NCBI RefSeq assembly: GCF_022814725.1
Contig: NZ_CP093442.1
Span: forward strand, 1,488,001 to 1,552,000
Direction of reading: 5' to 3'
DNA length: 64,000 bases
Origin: Bdellovibrio reynosensis
GTDB lineage: Bacteria > Bdellovibrionota > Bdellovibrionia > Bdellovibrionales > Bdellovibrionaceae
Part shown: one piece after another, positions 7,521 through 63,122 of the stretch
How the letters are laid out: every line of letters begins with the position of its first letter
How positions within the stretch are numbered: the stretch's first letter is position 1
Notes under the pieces: generated by a model
What the model saw: only the letters and a program-made list of their open reading frames with translations
The model's database searches: none
What the model was told of the DNA's origin: nothing
Program-made: the position numbers and the translations under genes

Positions 7521-7709
7521 TTCGCTAACTAGTCCTCGGAAGGCTTCGTAGCTGGCTTAGAGTGTCTGGCACGAAGAGCGCCTTTGCCGGCGCCTGGATG
7601 GCGCGAACCGCAGCTTTGCTGCGGCGGCAACTGAGCCCGGAAGGCGTGCGCTCGCAGTGGCAGATACTCTAAGCCAGCTACGAAGCCTTCCGACCGGACG
7701 AGTTAAGCA
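7521..7709. repeat. Large nested palindrome (28-bp perfect inverted repeat with inner hairpins)
   Basis: Arms at 7536-7563 and 7666-7693 are perfect 28-bp reverse complements (left arm begins TCGGAAGGCTTCGTAGC). Pairing continues imperfectly outward (GCTAACTAGTCC against GGACGAGTTAAGC). Inside there is a further hairpin, CCGCAGC-TTT-GCTGCGG, at 7609-7625. The outer edge reaches the stop codon of nrdJ (7703-7705). It could act as a terminator or mRNA 3' stabiliser for nrdJ, or be a REP-like or miniature element. No target duplication or coding capacity is visible. Confidence 0.8.
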
Positions 7710-19383: not shown

Positions 19384-19509
19384 CCCACAACCCCAAAAAG
19401 TTCAAGAATAGAGCATGAGATATTAGGCTAAAGAATCTGCCTGAATCATTCAATAAAAATTCCCAGCAAACTCATTGTGAAACAAATCGAAAAAAACACA
19501 CATCTCTAG

Positions 19510-19615
19510 CCTTGATCAAAAGGGGGCATATGCAAGGCGGAGGGGTTTTCCGCAGCGGAGGTGTGGCCGAGGACAACCCCCGACAACGCAGTCAGATGGC
19601 CGCTTTTCATCAAGG
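19510..19615. repeat. Structured repeat family, copy A (GCAAGGCGGAGG ... CAACGCAGTC)
   Basis: Outer arms at 19510-19529 and 19596-19615 are reverse complements at 17 of 20 positions. Between them lie the conserved strings GCAAGGCGGAGG (19532-19543) and CAACGCAGTC (19584-19593), and an inner stem GGGGTT (19542-19547)/AACCCC (19575-19580). The right arm runs over the stop codon of the neighbouring gene (19610-19612). The same architecture with different arm sequences occurs at 60583-60709, and a left half at 40029-40063. Confidence 0.8.
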
Positions 19616-20374
19616 CGTGTCGCCTTTGAATTTATAGGAGCCGCTAAAAACTGCTACGTGATCCTGTTGTCTCATCGGAACAGAAACCAAATAGCGTGGG
19701 TGACTCATATCCATAGAGTAGCCAGGAAAGGTAACCCATTTTTGTTTGAATGTTCCGTCAGAATTAAAAGTAAACAGCTCACTCAAATCCTGTGGCGAAT
19801 TTGCTTCTTCCCAGATTCTGCAGTTATCAACAGAAACTTCAGGAACCAAAGCGCCATCGTTGATCATCTTTTTCAAACGTGGACATACTTCGTAAGTAAA
19901 TCTTTGCACGAAATCGCGATCCCAAGTACTGGTTAAGTAAAGATCGCCGAAGTTTTCTTTTGTCAGACGGAAGAAGTGGCGGCCCATGTGGTAAACGGTA
20001 TTTAAGATTTTTTCTTGTTCAATTGGTGAACTAAAATCGCGGTACACGCGGATCTTTTTTCCTGCTAGCGACGTAGGCGCATACTTGATTTCCAATTTAA
20101 TCGCGGTTGTTTGCCCGTCACGCACGCGCACGAACCCTGGGTGAATGGAGTTTTCATAACCTAAAAGATAACTTCCCGCCGGAACTTGCATAGGTTTATT
20201 TAAATCAAAAAACACTGCCGGACCGCAAGAGTTGCGCTGACCTTCGATACAACGAACCGCTTTTACTTTTCTGAATGCCTGGTATTGACCAGCATTGCCG
20301 TTGACTTGCAAAAAGCCGTCAGCAAAAGCAAGACTTGAAATAAAGAGTGATGAGATTAGTAAAAATAGTTTCAT
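19610..20374 (-). CDS. Secreted hypothetical protein
   Basis: This 254-residue protein has a signal peptide (LFLLISSLFISSLAFADG) and a beta-rich mature part with repeated short strands (FLQVNGNAGQYQAF, MQVPAGSYLLGYEN), suggesting a carbohydrate- or peptide-binding beta domain in the periplasm or outside. Four or more cysteines could make disulfides (RCIEGQRNSCG, EVCPRL, DNCRIW). ATG 20374 is chosen over GTG 20380 because AGGAAG sits at proper distance. It follows the L,D-transpeptidase gene by 9 nt, so the two are probably co-transcribed and may act together on the envelope. The stop codon lies inside a repeat arm. Confidence 0.75.
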   Translation of the reverse strand: MKLFLLISSLFISSLAFADGFLQVNGNAGQYQAFRKVKAVRCIEGQRNSCGPAVFFDLNKPMQVPAGSYLLGYENSIHPGFVRVRDGQTTAIKLEIKYAPTSLAGKKIRVYRDFSSPIEQEKILNTVYHMGRHFFRLTKENFGDLYLTSTWDRDFVQRFTYEVCPRLKKMINDGALVPEVSVDNCRIWEEANSPQDLSELFTFNSDGTFKQKWVTFPGYSMDMSHPRYLVSVPMRQQDHVAVFSGSYKFKGDTP

Positions 20375-20383
20375 AGTCACTTC

Positions 20384-35264: not shown

Positions 35265-35457
35265 AAAATTCTTCCTTAATGACTAATCAATAAAGCAAAG
35301 GCATTGCCACAGCGGCAGGCGCTTAAATTGGCGTAGGGAAAGAAATAACTGACTGATGCCTAGACAGTGACATTCAACGGCAGCCACTAAGGAGCTTTTA
35401 CATAACCAAATTCTCATTATGAGACAGAACGGACCCTGCTCGCCCCAGCCTCCTGCC

Positions 35458-35497
35458 TTAAAGGTACCTGCTTCTTTTTACGGTTTCGGCGTGTCAA
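35458..35497. repeat. Shortened inverted relic of the 210-bp repeat
   Basis: AAAGGTACCTGCTT joined to CTTTTTACGGTTTC matches, in reverse complement, two parts of the repeat unit that are normally about 80 nt apart. It looks like a copy with an internal deletion in opposite orientation. Confidence 0.5.
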
Positions 35498-35540
35498 TTT
35501 ACTGCTCTATTCAGGAGTGAGTATTGAATTCACGCAATGG

Positions 35541-35751
35541 TTACCACCGGAGCGGCGGTGGAAATTGATTTTGCGTAATGGTTACCACCGAATCGGAAGT
35601 GAAAGTTGCTACGATGTACGCAAGAAAGTTTGTTCAGGTGGGAGCCTGACGCGGTGAAACCGTAAAAAGCAAAAAATGCCACGAAGGCATTTTTTCGCGT
35701 AAGCGAGAAGGGCAAGGGGGCAGGAGCCCGCAGCAAGCAGGCACCTTTTGG
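35541..35751. repeat. 210-bp direct repeat, copy 1
   Basis: A unit that begins TTACCACCGGAGCGG, contains a terminator-like hairpin (AAAAAATGCC/GGCATTTTTT at 35671-35695) and ends GCAGGCACC. It is repeated at 35806-36015 with about 95% identity by eye. Confidence 0.88.
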
Positions 35752-35805
35752 ACAAACGCAATGGTTACCGCCGATACGGTGGTAGAAATTTACTTTCAGC
35801 AATTT

Positions 35806-36015
35806 TTACCACCGGAGCGGTGGTGGAAATTGATTTTGCGTAATGGTTACCACCGATTCGGAAGTAGAATTTGCTACGATGTACGCAATGAAGTTTACTT
35901 CAGGTGGGAGCCTGACGCGGTGAAACCGTAAAAAGCAAAAAATGCCACGAAGGCATTTTTTCGCGTAAGCCCGAAGGGCAAGGGCAGGAGCCCGCAGCAA
36001 GCAGGCACCCTTTGG
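35806..36015. repeat. 210-bp direct repeat, copy 2
   Basis: Same order as copy 1 and the same hairpin at 35937-35961. The period between copies is 265 bp. Substitutions and one or two small indels separate the copies, so the duplication is not fresh. Confidence 0.88.
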
Positions 36016-40007: not shown

Positions 40008-40028
40008 CACCGAGCCAAGGTTGGCGAG

Positions 40029-40063
40029 AAGTGGCCATATGCAAGGCGGAGGATCGGCGACCG
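40029..40063. repeat. Structured repeat family, copy C (left half only)
   Basis: AAGTGGCCATATGC followed by the conserved GCAAGGCGGAGG (40041-40052) and ATCGG matches the left part of copies A and B. The right half with CAACGCAGTC is absent, and the sequence runs straight into the end of the gliding operon's last gene. Confidence 0.7.
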
Positions 40064-41083
40064 CTATTTATTACTTACGTCGATCGTTTCGAAGTCGATG
40101 GTCAAACCAACGTTCGGACCTTGATAGTTCCACTCAATTCCTTCTGCTAGAAGGATTGAATTCGTCGAAGGCTGATACACCCAACCGTTTGTTGCACTGT
40201 TAGGGATCACTTGCGTACCATAAGACACCTTGATGGTCTTAACATTCGGGATACGGCTTAGTTTCACCGAACCAGATGTTCTCCTTACGATATCGCGAGC
40301 AAACTCCGCTAATTTCACACCGTAGTCTGGAGCGCAAAGACTTAAGATGTTTTGTTGCATCTTATCGCCGTTCACAACAGTTCCTAAGAAGCCCTCAAGC
40401 TTATCATCGACATCTTCCATTGAAGTGCAGATATCTTGCTGAGCCACTGTGCGAATAACCCCGTAACCCAAGACTTTATTAGGGTCACCCTTTTTGGCCA
40501 CCAGCTGTGTCAACAAATCCTGTGGAGTATAATTAGATTGGTCTTTCGCATCGGTGATAAAGATCACCGCCAAGAAAGCGTCCTGACGATAAAAGTTACG
40601 GTTCACACCCATCTCTAAAGCTGGGGATAAAGCCGCTAATACCGGGCCGAACATTTCTTCTGAAGCTGAACCGTTGGTACCCACGATGAATTTGCGTGAC
40701 AGGATATTCACTAGATCTGGGGTGCTGTTTTCAACATAGGCAGGATATCCTTGCAGCTTCCCACAATCAGTACTGCAGTCATCCATATCTGTCGTCACGA
40801 TACCGATGTGGTAATCAAGAATCGAAACTTTAGAAATAGCATCAGCGAACTCCAAAGCATTGCGGCTTAAGTTGTTCTGCGCTTCCGCCATACTTCCTGA
40901 GTTATCGATTACAAAAAGAATGTCTACTTTAGGATTAAAGACCGCAAAGTCTTTTGGTTTTTCCTGGAAGTCTTCCTTTGGAATAACCGCTTTAGCGACA
41001 AGCTTTGTTGATTCGCTCGGGCTGCACCCTACTAAAGCTACACCCGCTGCCAATGCAAGGATGCATTTATTAGCTAATTTCAT
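40064..41083 (-). CDS. VWA-domain lipoprotein of the gliding operon
   Basis: This 339-residue lipoprotein (lipobox ALVGC, Cys20) has a von Willebrand A domain with the metal-ion adhesion site DNSGSM at ~residue 60, TDMDDCSTDCG later in the domain, and further cysteines near the end (DICTSMEDVDD, SLCAPDYG). VWA domains bind proteins in a metal-dependent way, so it could be an adhesion or regulatory part of the motility complex. ATG 41083 follows AAGGAG and touches the upstream TPR gene's stop. It is the last gene of the operon. Confidence 0.82.
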   Translation of the reverse strand: MKLANKCILALAAGVALVGCSPSESTKLVAKAVIPKEDFQEKPKDFAVFNPKVDILFVIDNSGSMAEAQNNLSRNALEFADAISKVSILDYHIGIVTTDMDDCSTDCGKLQGYPAYVENSTPDLVNILSRKFIVGTNGSASEEMFGPVLAALSPALEMGVNRNFYRQDAFLAVIFITDAKDQSNYTPQDLLTQLVAKKGDPNKVLGYGVIRTVAQQDICTSMEDVDDKLEGFLGTVVNGDKMQQNILSLCAPDYGVKLAEFARDIVRRTSGSVKLSRIPNVKTIKVSYGTQVIPNSATNGWVYQPSTNSILLAEGIEWNYQGPNVGLTIDFETIDVSNK

Positions 41084-41085
41084 TA

Positions 41086-42681
41086 CTACTCCTTCGCAAC
41101 GGCTTTCGCGCAACCTTTTTTAACATCGACTTTGAAATTTGAAAGTTCGTCGAACCAAATTTCTTTGTCGTGCACAAAGTTCATCGCATGTTTGCTGCTT
41201 GAACCGGTGCTACCGATTTTCGCTTCAGACGTGCCTAGGTTTTTAAGGAATTTTTGCGCCGAATCCACTTGTTGGATCATTTCAACTTCAACGATTCTTA
41301 GGCGTTGCATAACTTGTTTTGAGTCTTCAAGTTCTTGTTTCGCCAGATCTTGAACACGTTGGTAACCAGCACCTTCCGTCATTTGCGCGCGAGTCTGAAC
41401 TTGGTTTTTCAAAGTTTCAAACTGACCTTGCAAGTTTCCGAAAGTCAAAGAACGAGCGTAAAGCTGTTCAGCTACACCCGCTTCTTTAGATAGGAATTGA
41501 TGTCTTTTTACTAACAAAGACAACATCTCATCTTTAGAGGCATAAGTCGGCAATTGATGAGCATCTTTACCTAGCTTTTCATTGCTAACAGGTCCATCAG
41601 CCAAAGACTTCATCAAGTTCGCAACTGCTGGTTGACGAGCGTCTGCTGCCAATTTTTCTAAAGCAATAAGGTGTTCACCAAACTGTGGTTTTATCGCTTT
41701 CATTGTCGCGATCACGCCTGGGTAATCACACACTTTTAGGCTTGTGAAAGAACCTAAAAGATACGACTCAATTCCTACCCAACCTTTAAAGTGTGGGTAA
41801 GTCAGAGTTTTAGTGATTGCCATTGCGTTTTGTGGTTCACCTTTTCTCATGTAAGCCCAAGCCATTTCTTCTTGAGCTTGAAACCAGTAATCAGACTTCT
41901 TAGAGATCTTTTCGTAATATTTCAACGAAGCATCCAAGAAACCGTTTTGATATAACAAACGGCCCGCAGTGATCGTCATAAGATCTTTATCAATCGGATT
42001 GTTCTTAACCTTCATTAAGTGAGCAAGAACTTGAGCCGCTTTTGAAGCGTCCCCTTTGATACCAAGATTTAAAACCAACTGCCATTGTAGGATCGCACGT
42101 TGTGCTGAATCCACCGGGGTCTTTTTGATTAGTTCAGTCAGGCTTGCGATGTCTTCTTCAACGTAGGTTTTTTGCAAAACCACCGCCATTTCAGCACCCA
42201 CACCGAACACACCTGTCCAATAAGGATTCCAGGTGATCTGAACCATGCCCCACACTGGATCTTTATCGTTCAAGTTTTCTTTCCAAAGGCTGATAACTGA
42301 GTTGTCAATTTTTTGGGGCTCTTTAATTGCCATCAAACTTTCGACGCCATTCAGTTTTAAGCCGTTTTTATAATATAAAAACGCCTCAAGGGCTTTGCCA
42401 GTTTCTAAAGCTTGGAAAGTAGATCCGTTAAAAGCCGAGCTCCACTGGAACAAAGCTTTTTCATAGTTCTTTTCAACTAAGAACTGAAAGAAGATATTTT
42501 GTTCAGCCGATGAAGGGTTCACGGCTTTTTTAAGCTTAGCCACTTCTTCAGACTCAACGAATTGAGCTGCCGAAGTGCCAGTCTTTCCTTCAAGGATGCT
42601 CATCAAGTCGTCTTCAGCTAAAGCCGCGTTGTGAACACCTAAAAGTAAAGATGCAACAGTTAAGGATTTTACGATCATCAT
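41086..42681 (-). CDS. Periplasmic TPR protein, GltE-like
   Basis: This 531-residue protein has a signal peptide (KSLTVASLLLGVHNAALA) and TPR-like helical repeats through most of its length (for example QNGFLDASLKYYEKIS and QAQEEMAWAYMRKGEPQNAMAI). TPR proteins of this kind scaffold the Glt gliding complex in Myxococcus. The match to GltE is by operon position and architecture, not by sequence search. Its ATG overlaps the stop of the outer-membrane barrel gene (TTATGATG). Confidence 0.8.
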   Translation of the reverse strand: MMIVKSLTVASLLLGVHNAALAEDDLMSILEGKTGTSAAQFVESEEVAKLKKAVNPSSAEQNIFFQFLVEKNYEKALFQWSSAFNGSTFQALETGKALEAFLYYKNGLKLNGVESLMAIKEPQKIDNSVISLWKENLNDKDPVWGMVQITWNPYWTGVFGVGAEMAVVLQKTYVEEDIASLTELIKKTPVDSAQRAILQWQLVLNLGIKGDASKAAQVLAHLMKVKNNPIDKDLMTITAGRLLYQNGFLDASLKYYEKISKKSDYWFQAQEEMAWAYMRKGEPQNAMAITKTLTYPHFKGWVGIESYLLGSFTSLKVCDYPGVIATMKAIKPQFGEHLIALEKLAADARQPAVANLMKSLADGPVSNEKLGKDAHQLPTYASKDEMLSLLVKRHQFLSKEAGVAEQLYARSLTFGNLQGQFETLKNQVQTRAQMTEGAGYQRVQDLAKQELEDSKQVMQRLRIVEVEMIQQVDSAQKFLKNLGTSEAKIGSTGSSSKHAMNFVHDKEIWFDELSNFKVDVKKGCAKAVAKE

Positions 42682-60545: not shown

Positions 60546-60582
60546 TTCCCCTCCCCAAAATTCTCTGCGAAAAAAACCGAGA

Positions 60583-60709
60583 GGGCGAATCAAAAGGGTC
60601 CAAGCGCAAGGCGGAGGATCCTTCGCGAAACGCAGGCGTACCTGTAAGGTACGTCGGAGAGAAGCGAAGGACCGCACAACGCAGTCGATTGGGCCCTTTT
60701 CATTCGCCC
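60583..60709. repeat. Structured repeat family, copy B
   Basis: Outer arms at 60583-60603 and 60689-60709 pair at 19 of 21 positions (GGGCGAATCAAAAGGG ... CCCTTTTCATTCGCCC). Conserved strings GCAAGGCGGAGG (60606-60617) and CAACGCAGTC (60677-60686) lie inside. The inner stem is CCTTCGC (60620-60626)/GCGAAGG (60664-60670), capped by CGTACC-TGTAA-GGTACG. The strings match copy A, but both stems have different sequences that still pair. Confidence 0.82.
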
Positions 60710-60764
60710 GGTGTCTCGTTTCGCGCCGGAAACTGACGTATTTTGAGAATCGACGTTCGCCCTA

Positions 60765-61040: not shown

Positions 61041-61256
61041 TAGATCCTTCCTTTGCCTCAAGGCAAACCGTGGGAAACTGCGGGACGCAAAGCTAGAGGG
61101 GTGTCGGCGCAAGCCATGCCAGCCAGCTGCCAAAGGTGAGTCACCTGAGGAATCAGAGGTGTGCATATGGAAGGTTCAATTACATACAAGGATTGGTTTC
61201 ATTCCCCTTAGCTTACGAGTTATCACTGACGATTCCTCGTAAGCATTTTTGTTTTT
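61041..61256 (+). ncRNA. c-di-GMP-I (GEMM) riboswitch aptamer on a short self-terminated RNA
   Basis: The aptamer shows CAAGGCAAACC, a GAAA-capped stem (CCGTGG-GAAA-CTGCGG), GGGACGCAAAGC (61082-61093) and the second helix arm ending CCAGCCAGCTGCC; P1 closes with CCTTTG/CAAAGG. The base that contacts the ligand (G20 of Vc2) is G at 61062, which favours c-di-GMP over cGAMP variants. Hairpins follow at 61142-61161 and 61211-61244, the latter an intrinsic terminator. The next gene starts 115 nt later. Such an RNA, 'merRNA', is very abundant in attack-phase Bdellovibrio; this is probably its homologue. Confidence 0.88.
61211..61256 (+). terminator. Terminator of the c-di-GMP RNA
   Basis: GCTTACGAG (61211-61219) and CTCGTAAGC (61236-61244) form a perfect 9-bp stem across a 16-nt loop, followed by ATTTTTGTTTTT. 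Confidence 0.88.
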
Positions 61257-61370: not shown

Positions 61371-63122
61371 ATGCCTATTAAATTATTTTTCGCAGTAGTT
61401 TTTTTAATCCTTTCTTATTCTTTCGCCACAGCTACTCCGCTTCTAATAGATGATCCCTTAAAGCTCGAGCAATTTGAAAAAGAAGGACTAAGCCTTAGCG
61501 AGCTAGTCTTCACTAAAAGAACTTCAAACAACCAAGAACTAGCGCAAGTCCCAAGATACACAAACCTCGCTGAAGACCTTACAGCTGACTTAAACGACCT
61601 TCGCAAAACAGATCCACAACTGGGCCCGGGAATGTCTTTCACTCACCGTCTTTTTCATTCTAAATGGCTGACCTCACAAGCAGCCCGTTTTGAATTAGTG
61701 GGAATCGTAAACCGGTTAGACCGCGCCGTCTTTAATCCAGACCGTTGCGGAGAGATTAGATTTATCTATCGCTTGGCTTATACGAAAAAACAAAACACCA
61801 CCTCCGTTGAATCCCGTTTGCCGATGACAGCCAATGCGGTTTTCTTTTTTCCAGAGGGAACATCCTGCAAAGACTTAGCAAAACTTTGGCTCACCTTAGA
61901 TTCCACTCAATTAAAACAATGGGCCAAACCTGAAAACTTAAAATCCCTAGAGCTAAATCTTCAAGCCACGCGCTGGCCATCAACTACTCGCGGAGATATG
62001 GGTGGTCACGCGGAGTATTTCTTAAGAGTGTACAAATTAAACTCAGCGGGACATCTCAACTTAGCCCCGTTAGAAAATACCCCAGATGTGGAGTTGATAA
62101 ATAAAAATCCCGCTTTAAAAGCAGAACTTCTGCAGTGGTTATCACAACCCCAACAAATTCAGGATTTAGATAAAGGCATCTTAAACATTCCCGAAAAATT
62201 CCTAGCACGCAAAACTTCGTCCTTTGCCCTACACGGAATGAATCGCCTAGCAAACAGACCCTTTGATCAAATCTTCAAGAAAGATGATTTCAAAACCATC
62301 GATTATAAAAACCTAGAATACGTCTATGGCCCGTCATCAATGCGCCGTCGCCTGAATGACTTAACCTGCGCCGGTTGCCATCAAGGTCGCACCATCGCGG
62401 GCTTTCACTTCCTCGGAAAAGATTCAGAAAAAACGATCTTCGCAAATTCCATCTTTTCATCCCGCTCGCCACATCTAATCAGCGATATTGAACGCCGTAT
62501 CACTTATTTCAACGATCTTCTGAACGACAAAAAACCAGATGCTGCTCGTCCCTTTTCAGAGCGAGATCCAAAAATCCTTGGCAAAGCCAACGAGCATTGC
62601 GGATTCCCGAATTCCGAGTTTCAGTCCTGGAAGTGCGCACCGGGTTTAACCTGCACCAGCGTGATTTCACCAGCGACGTCTTCAGAGTTAGGCCTGTGCT
62701 TACCAAATGAATCCTTAGCAGGTCTTCCTTGTGAAACAGGAACGATAAGCCAAACTGCCAATGACAAAAAAGACTCTTTAACAAAAGGGACTCCCCGTTC
62801 TTGCGGCGCGGGTTACATCTGCCAAAACACCAGGGTCGGCTTCCCCGGCGGCATGTGTTCGAAGGGCTGCGCAAATTTAAAACCCGGCGAAACTTGCGGT
62901 TCCATCGCAGTTCTTGCTGGTTTCAATGATTGCTTAGCTAGAAAAAAGCCGTTCGCAGAATGTCTTGCTAACAACACCCAACCGGGTGCTTTGCAAGCCT
63001 GCGATGAAACAACACCATGCCGTGAAGACTACATCTGCACCAAAACCAAAGAAGGCAAAGGCGCCTGCATTCCGCCGTACTTCTTATTTCAGCTTAGAGT
63101 CGACGGTCATCCAGAACCATAA
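61371..63122 (+). CDS. Secreted Cys-rich protein with one CxxCH haem motif
   Basis: This 583-residue protein has a signal peptide (FFAVVFLILSYSFATA). A single c-type haem motif, CAGCHQGRT, sits near residue 335. The C-terminal ~170 residues are rich in cysteines with repeats like CAPGLTCTSV, CGAGYICQN and CREDYICTK, resembling Cys-rich, EGF- or notch-like extracellular modules. I do not recognise the family. It may be a periplasmic or surface electron-transfer or binding protein. It is the first gene after the c-di-GMP RNA and could be controlled by read-through. Confidence 0.78.
   Translation: MPIKLFFAVVFLILSYSFATATPLLIDDPLKLEQFEKEGLSLSELVFTKRTSNNQELAQVPRYTNLAEDLTADLNDLRKTDPQLGPGMSFTHRLFHSKWLTSQAARFELVGIVNRLDRAVFNPDRCGEIRFIYRLAYTKKQNTTSVESRLPMTANAVFFFPEGTSCKDLAKLWLTLDSTQLKQWAKPENLKSLELNLQATRWPSTTRGDMGGHAEYFLRVYKLNSAGHLNLAPLENTPDVELINKNPALKAELLQWLSQPQQIQDLDKGILNIPEKFLARKTSSFALHGMNRLANRPFDQIFKKDDFKTIDYKNLEYVYGPSSMRRRLNDLTCAGCHQGRTIAGFHFLGKDSEKTIFANSIFSSRSPHLISDIERRITYFNDLLNDKKPDAARPFSERDPKILGKANEHCGFPNSEFQSWKCAPGLTCTSVISPATSSELGLCLPNESLAGLPCETGTISQTANDKKDSLTKGTPRSCGAGYICQNTRVGFPGGMCSKGCANLKPGETCGSIAVLAGFNDCLARKKPFAECLANNTQPGALQACDETTPCREDYICTKTKEGKGACIPPYFLFQLRVDGHPEP

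Follow-up and report, generated by a model that had tools for sequence, protein, structure and literature searches.

The described sequences that come closest to the repeat discussed here are the 24 "predicted short RNA elements" of G. metallireducens (e.g. Gmet_R1005), which the relevant passages of a 2009 paper (PMC2700814) present as intergenic and multicopy, as having the central palindrome GRCGTAGCGCTGCTACGCC, and as occurring also in other Geobacter species and in Desulfotalea. Those passages describe short RNAs of a few Desulfobacterota, and are silent as to fold, covariation and strand, and equally as to replication polarity, mobility or any wider distribution. A second point of comparison is the MRSC-65-2 motif (PMC11109978), which is likewise a long single hairpin showing covariation, with dozens of copies per genome and representatives in many phyla, and which is also suspected of being mobile, its mover being unproven; it is, however, defined by a conserved UYCCGG repeat, and UYCCGG is not conserved in alignments of the present element.

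The repeat in question, here called the hairpin element, is represented in a 64-kb stretch of the Bdellovibrio reynosensis chromosome (the window, within which positions are given unless otherwise stated). Its strands are denoted E, which is the strand as presented and is the plus strand in the window, and T, its complement. A literature search using sequence strings gave PMC2700814 as its sole match: GRCGTAGCGCTGCTACGCC is the exact apex of many copies in this genome (reading GACGTAGCGCTGCTACGCC on the T strand), while its reverse complement, GGCGTAGCAGCGCTACGTC, is the apex in many of the genome's own copies and in a Geobacter relative (L136). Judged by this palindrome, the elements that those passages describe in G. 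metallireducens probably belong to the same family and, since the apex is identical, part of the family was probably already seen in 2009. The interpretation that on balance we think probable is that the hairpin element is a non-coding, non-autonomous mobile hairpin, with the fold of its E strand kept by selection, its orientation set by replication, and, putatively, an enzyme that moves it in trans.

Copies in the window, in the genome and beyond

Two copies of the element, A and B, are present in the window at the positions given in the first-pass annotation, and share the cores that were recognised there; a pattern requiring both cores found no match in 100 shuffles. The features, with the evidence for each in brackets, are as follows.

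19506–19619, plus: copy A, full model match with the apex shortened (R1, 97.0 bits, E 1.3e-24 in the window)
19509–19516, plus: copy A, 5' side of outer arm, GCCTTGAT (sequence, fold, column covariation)
19517 and 19608, plus: copy A, C-C mismatch, the C after the 5' arm facing the C at 19608 (sequence, fold)
19532–19543, plus: copy A, left conserved core, GCAAGGCGGAGG (near-invariant alignment columns)
19542–19580, plus: copy A, inner stem, GGGGTT (19542–19547) with AACCCC (19575–19580) (fold)
19584–19593, plus: copy A, right conserved core, CAACGCAGTC (near-invariant alignment columns)
19609–19616, plus: copy A, 3' side of outer arm, ATCAAGGC (sequence, fold)
40015–40066, plus: third copy, internally deleted (14.7 bits, E 0.13; right end read by eye)
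60580–60712, plus: copy B, full length (R1, 92.3 bits, E 2.6e-23)
60583–60590, plus: copy B, 5' outer arm, GGGCGAAT, with its partner ATTCGCCC at 60702–60709 (sequence, fold)
60591 and 60701, plus: copy B, C-C mismatch (sequence, fold)
60606–60617, plus: copy B, left conserved core, GCAAGGCGGAGG (motif match)
60620–60670, plus: copy B, inner stem, CCTTCGC (60620–60626) with GCGAAGG (60664–60670), enclosing the apical hairpin GGCGTACCTGTAAGGTACGTC (sequence, fold)
60677–60686, plus: copy B, right conserved core, CAACGCAGTC (motif match)

As had been claimed, both the outer arms and the inner stems of A and B are unlike one another and yet pair, and the DNA fold of the plus strand has a z-score relative to shuffles of −4.6 for copy A and −7.6 for copy B. 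The C-C mismatch is also real, being retained in 36 of 37 copies with the same outer-arm subtype; a second subtype (GGTTGGCGAGAAG..CTTATCGNCGACC) pairs at this position but retains other mismatches. In the third copy the left arm and left core (40015–40052) are fused to the right end ATCGGCGACCGC. The statement that all copies lie just after stop codons holds for copy A, the 3' outer arm of which contains the stop codon TGA (19612–19610) of the minus-strand gene 19610–20380, and for the third copy, the boundary of which coincides with the stop codon TAG (40066–40064) of the minus-strand gene 40064–41113, but not for copy B, which begins 93 nt beyond a plus-strand gene. Between that gene and copy B is an inverted repeat ending in T's, which from its sequence looks like a terminator. 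Two other features of the window may be recorded here, namely a c-di-GMP-I riboswitch (RF01051, 59.2 bits) at 61052–61134, roughly 340 nt past copy B and preceding the plus-strand gene 61371–63122, and a separate large hairpin at 7536–7693, with 46-nt arms that are 89% complementary and lie 66 nt apart, which is outside the hairpin-element family.

A search of the 3.58-Mb chromosome with covariance models (R1, made from five sequences, then R2, made from 63) gave 76 copies. The element is about 131 nt long with 43 pairs. Its outer arms, which fall into two subtypes, enclose the core (GCAAGGCGGAGG / CAACGCAGTC), within which lie an inner stem that varies between copies and, at the apex, a hairpin (e.g. 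GGCGTAGCAGCGCTACGTC); the same inner module is found with different outer arms. In 53 of the 76 copies the gene on the T-left side is in the sense orientation, with most stops falling about −16 to +11 nt from the boundary, and in the remaining 23 it is antisense. TA[AG] occurs near the T-left boundary in 43 of 75 copies against a background of 26%, an excess that largely reflects these stop codons. In four copies (L080 981–1176, L081 1001–1198, L074 1001–1158 and L075 1001–1160) a second family of palindromic repeat (e.g. CAAAAATGCC..GGCATTTTTGCGCG) nests inside the hairpin element, inserted near the right core.

The family extends to Bdellovibrionota, Desulfobacterota, Methylomirabilota, Rokubacteria, Nitrospirota, Omnitrophota, Gemmatimonadota, Bacteroidota and Selenomonadales. 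When one genome from each of 84,980 species was searched using a two-part DNA pattern, at least 120 stretches matched, and among the 80 matches listed the record names were those of Deltaproteobacteria/Desulfobacterota, Methylomirabilota/NC10, Rokubacteria, Nitrospiria, Omnitrophota, Selenomonadales, Gemmatimonadetes and Bacteroidales. Closer to home, 34 of the 60 genomes searched around this one have the family, other members of the genus having between 0 and 45 copies each, and in the order around a Geobacter-type genome it is present in 30 of 38. Viral contigs, phages, plasmids and E. coli gave no match; the last three were searched with single sequences, by which diverged copies would be missed. 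In a subset of the cross-phylum copies (e.g. L131, L137, L139 and L167) the outer arm is repeated some 15–20 nt past the end (CAGCCTGTATAAAAAGACTTTTTCAACAGCCTGCTAG), so that one arm has two alternative partners.

Covariation and the strand that folds

The first-pass annotation had argued that compensatory change is the mark of a selected structure, and that this could be checked on further copies. Taking 62 distinct full-length copies and 43 pairs, standard pairs are formed in 91.1% of pair cells (74.0 ± 0.5 when shuffled), two-sided change is seen at 32 of the 43 pairs, and the covariation score is 0.495 (0.183 ± 0.007 when shuffled); these figures are from a plain MAFFT alignment, and all measures exceed those of all 500 shuffles and all slid controls. 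The 43-pair structure was itself derived from the same 62 sequences, and the cross-phylum set provides a more independent check: in 114 copies that R2 matches end to end, 88.2% of cells are paired, 41 of 43 pairs have changed on both sides, and the covariation score is 0.472 against 0.139 ± 0.005, albeit in an alignment fitted to the R2 model and so biased towards the R2 structure. In addition, at one orthologous site in five species the inner stems are almost wholly different while their pairing is retained. Together these results strongly support the argument from compensatory change, although at old orthologous sites the compensatory pairs may also be the product of host selection, or of gene conversion among copies together with the correction of palindromes.

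The second of these processes lies at the heart of an alternative that we regard as decidedly doubtful, namely that the element is a neutral MITE moved by a double-strand (DDE) transposase, its pairing being kept by arm-to-arm correction together with gene conversion and its fold being unselected. The arms do form long inverted repeats, many cross-phylum copies read TA[AG]-CAGGCTG..CAGCCTG, and the association of one inner module with varied outer arms is what gene conversion would yield. Such an element would, however, be expected to show neither constant mismatches nor replication polarity, both of which are observed, nor any asymmetry between its strands in the tolerance of G-T over A-C, contrary to the data that follow; nor was any target duplication seen, the junctions being diverged.

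Were the fold of one strand under selection, G·T would be expected in that strand at places where its complement has A·C. On the E strand there are 214 G·T as against 37 A·C cells in the 62 own copies (22 of the 37 fall at a single pair and belong to copies whose inner fold is different), and 313 as against 59 across phyla. E is also more stable than T in 60 of 62 own and 108 of 114 cross-phylum copies using RNA parameters, and in 61 of 62 and 110 of 114 respectively using DNA parameters, while two adjacent G/A non-pairs within the stem (CAGATG facing CAGATG) are retained in the cross-phylum copies. Because of this asymmetry, this advantage in stability and these retained non-pairs, the fold of the E strand is, as judged by comparison of sequences, the object of selection. 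The G-T/A-C test led us to abandon the idea of T, on the lagging-strand template, as the active strand.

A selected fold need not be that of an RNA. The first-pass annotation suggested that RNA was probable, and the wobble asymmetry does indicate a single strand that folds, but it fits RNA and single-stranded DNA equally, while the fork-linked orientation and the presence or absence of copies at orthologous sites (see below) favour a DNA or mobile explanation. It is in our view unlikely that the element is a host-functional structured RNA, either regulatory or at the 3' ends of mRNAs, the copies of which are kept to stabilise, terminate or regulate transcripts, even though the strong covariation, the G-T tolerance of one strand, the conserved internal loops, the compensatory changes among the copies that five species have at one orthologous site, and the position of many copies between the stop codon of one gene and the next gene are all as such an RNA would have them, and even though the Geobacter authors named their family short RNA elements in the passages already cited (PMC2700814). 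Against it are the facts that orientation tracks replication rather than genes, that E is antisense to the gene running into the element, that terminator-like sequence lies between the element and the other gene at copy B and at L008, and that species differ in the copies they have at the same sites. Comparison with Rfam, including permissive scans, produced only chance-level matches, with no family's gathering threshold passed by the hairpin element, which again is contrary to this explanation.

Orientation, mobility and the search for a mover

In this genome dnaA is located at 2.535 Mb, a position at which GC skew changes sign, as it does again near 0.7 Mb. Relative to these landmarks E points opposite to fork movement in 68 of the 76 copies (p = 6e-13), so that E belongs to the leading-strand template and T to that of the lagging strand. 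Among predicted genes 64% are leading; of the 23 copies with an antisense left gene, however, 17 still follow the polarity where about 36% would be expected, and gene orientation therefore does not explain it. The same polarity is seen among the best listed matches in G002 (15/15), G023 (13/13) and G006 (9/9, taking the contig start as the origin). It is weaker in three Geobacter-type chromosomes (G074, 46/58; G104, 41/63; G081, 20/29), for which a terminus at the midpoint was assumed; using a fitted terminus the count for G081 becomes 26/29. Copies that point the wrong way are more often shortened (3 of 8 as against 5 of 68, p = 0.03) and fold less stably (p = 0.04), in a comparison that is post hoc and concerns eight copies. 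One identical pair of copies (L060 and L061, at G000:C1 949651 and 1756003) is found immediately beyond the 5S end of each of two rRNA operons, with the break in the duplicated block 9 nt beyond the element; recent composite transposition was considered for this pair and rejected, as the copies flank two rRNA operons.

Mobility was assessed by searching for the joined flanks of nine sites in twelve relatives. The site between slyD and yajQ is filled in this genome and in G002, G006, G008 and G023 but holds no copy in G001, G003, G004, G007, G018 and G019; another is filled here and empty in all 11 relatives compared; and a third (L042) is filled both in this genome and in G019, by copies whose arms differ greatly. 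Filled and empty orthologous sites of this kind show, at the level of sequence, that the element is mobile, although some of the differences could represent loss, the flanks being about 75–85% identical between the species compared. No target duplication was seen at the filled/empty junctions, which have diverged too far for a short one to be shown or ruled out, no strict target motif was found at the element boundaries, and in these comparisons between species no insertion was caught in progress.

The mobile relation to a transposase that had been envisaged thus stands as regards mobility, but no linked transposase was found. Neither within the genus nor across the Geobacter-type order does Y1_Tnp track copy number (rank correlations not significant); it was not detected in the copy-rich genomes G013 (45 copies), G017 (19), G074 (62), G090 (40) and G099 (40), whereas it is present in genomes that have no copies. 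A copy of the element is near only one of 30 Y1 loci, and the only RAYT in this genome is flanked by its own repeats. RAYT was accordingly rejected as mover, on adjacency and on co-occurrence in two clades, and the known Y1 (RAYT/IS200) transposases in general are unlikely in that role. The genes that recur beside the element at 140 cross-phylum loci belong only to generic, widespread families, none of which suggests a mover, and a search for split (autonomous) copies with their halves 0.2–4 kb apart found none. As observations on the other repeats, a RAYT-like gene of 224 aa (L096, G000:C1 about 1958078–1959111) lies between copies of GGTGCCTGCTTCTTTTTTGG, a separate family from the hairpin element with about 41 near-matches in the genome, and a cluster of direct repeats with 41-nt and 95-nt units at 35454–35984 of the window has at its edge GGTACCTGCTTCTTTTTACG, a relative of the repeat flanking the only RAYT gene.

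These results bear on the proposal that we are dealing with a large REP-type element, moved through the action of a Y1 (RAYT/IS200-like) transposase on the lagging-strand template. A hairpin with constant mismatches, a high intergenic copy number, a polarity tied to replication and stop codons at the end of the element do all resemble REPs or IS608 (PMC3733652, PMC6006769), but it is the leading-strand template that carries the folding strand of the hairpin element, which is the reverse of the IS608 rule, and this, with the distribution of Y1 genes just described, makes the proposal very improbable.

The E strand is kept foldable as a long imperfect hairpin, the internal loops of which are conserved. 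If, as we think probable, the element is a non-autonomous mobile hairpin, an enzyme provided in trans would recognise the folded single strand and seed new copies, often directly after stop codons so that the gene is left intact, and DNA replication would then fix the orientation by one of two routes, either through incorporation of the E strand with the polarity of an Okazaki strand, or through loss of those copies in which the E hairpin is on the exposed lagging-strand template. We lean slightly towards loss, because the wrong-way copies are shorter and less well folded. A bolder form, which can be entertained only tentatively, is that of a pan-phylum mobile class spreading as a folded single strand (ssDNA or RNA/cDNA) by means of a putative mobilising enzyme, with the polarity of the Okazaki strand, opposite to that of IS200/IS605. 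Together, the single family, the identified folding strand and the polarity amount to a case, open to testing, for an orphan mobile system of the single-strand kind or for hairpin loss that depends on orientation as a force shaping genomes, and the copies at stop codons constitute natural tests of 3'-end effects.

Place among known hairpin repeats

The present analysis identifies the folding strand, demonstrates a strong replication polarity, and unites scattered "multicopy sequences" from several phyla into one family by means of a covariance model. Integron attC sites, which were also considered for comparison, are marked by R and L boxes (RYYYAAC/GTTRRRY) and by a linked integrase. Of the better-known repeats, the REPs of the GTAG and CGTC families (PMC3733652) are similarly multicopy intergenic palindromes with imperfect stems and alternative complementary residues, their ends can supply a stop codon as those of the hairpin element do, and the CGTC REPs likewise have no dedicated transposase. 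REPs, however, are 20–40 bp long with stems of 5–13 bp (PMC3733652), as compared with a three-part hairpin of about 131 nt and 43 pairs; they carry a GTAG or CGTC tag (PMC3733652), whereas the end profiles of the hairpin element show no such conserved tetranucleotide; and in the RAYT-mobilised form (the REPtron) the RAYT is flanked by or co-occurs with the repeats, which is not so here. For IS200/IS605 and RAYT (Y1; PMC6006769), recognition of a hairpin on one strand combined with fork coupling would explain both the fold and the polarity, but the hairpin element is without a linked or co-occurring Y1 gene, and the active folded strand of IS200/IS605 is on the lagging-strand template (PMC6006769), whereas E is on the leading-strand template in the great majority of copies. 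The hairpin element is accordingly filed here among the non-autonomous hairpin repeats, within which its reach and its polarity are unusual.
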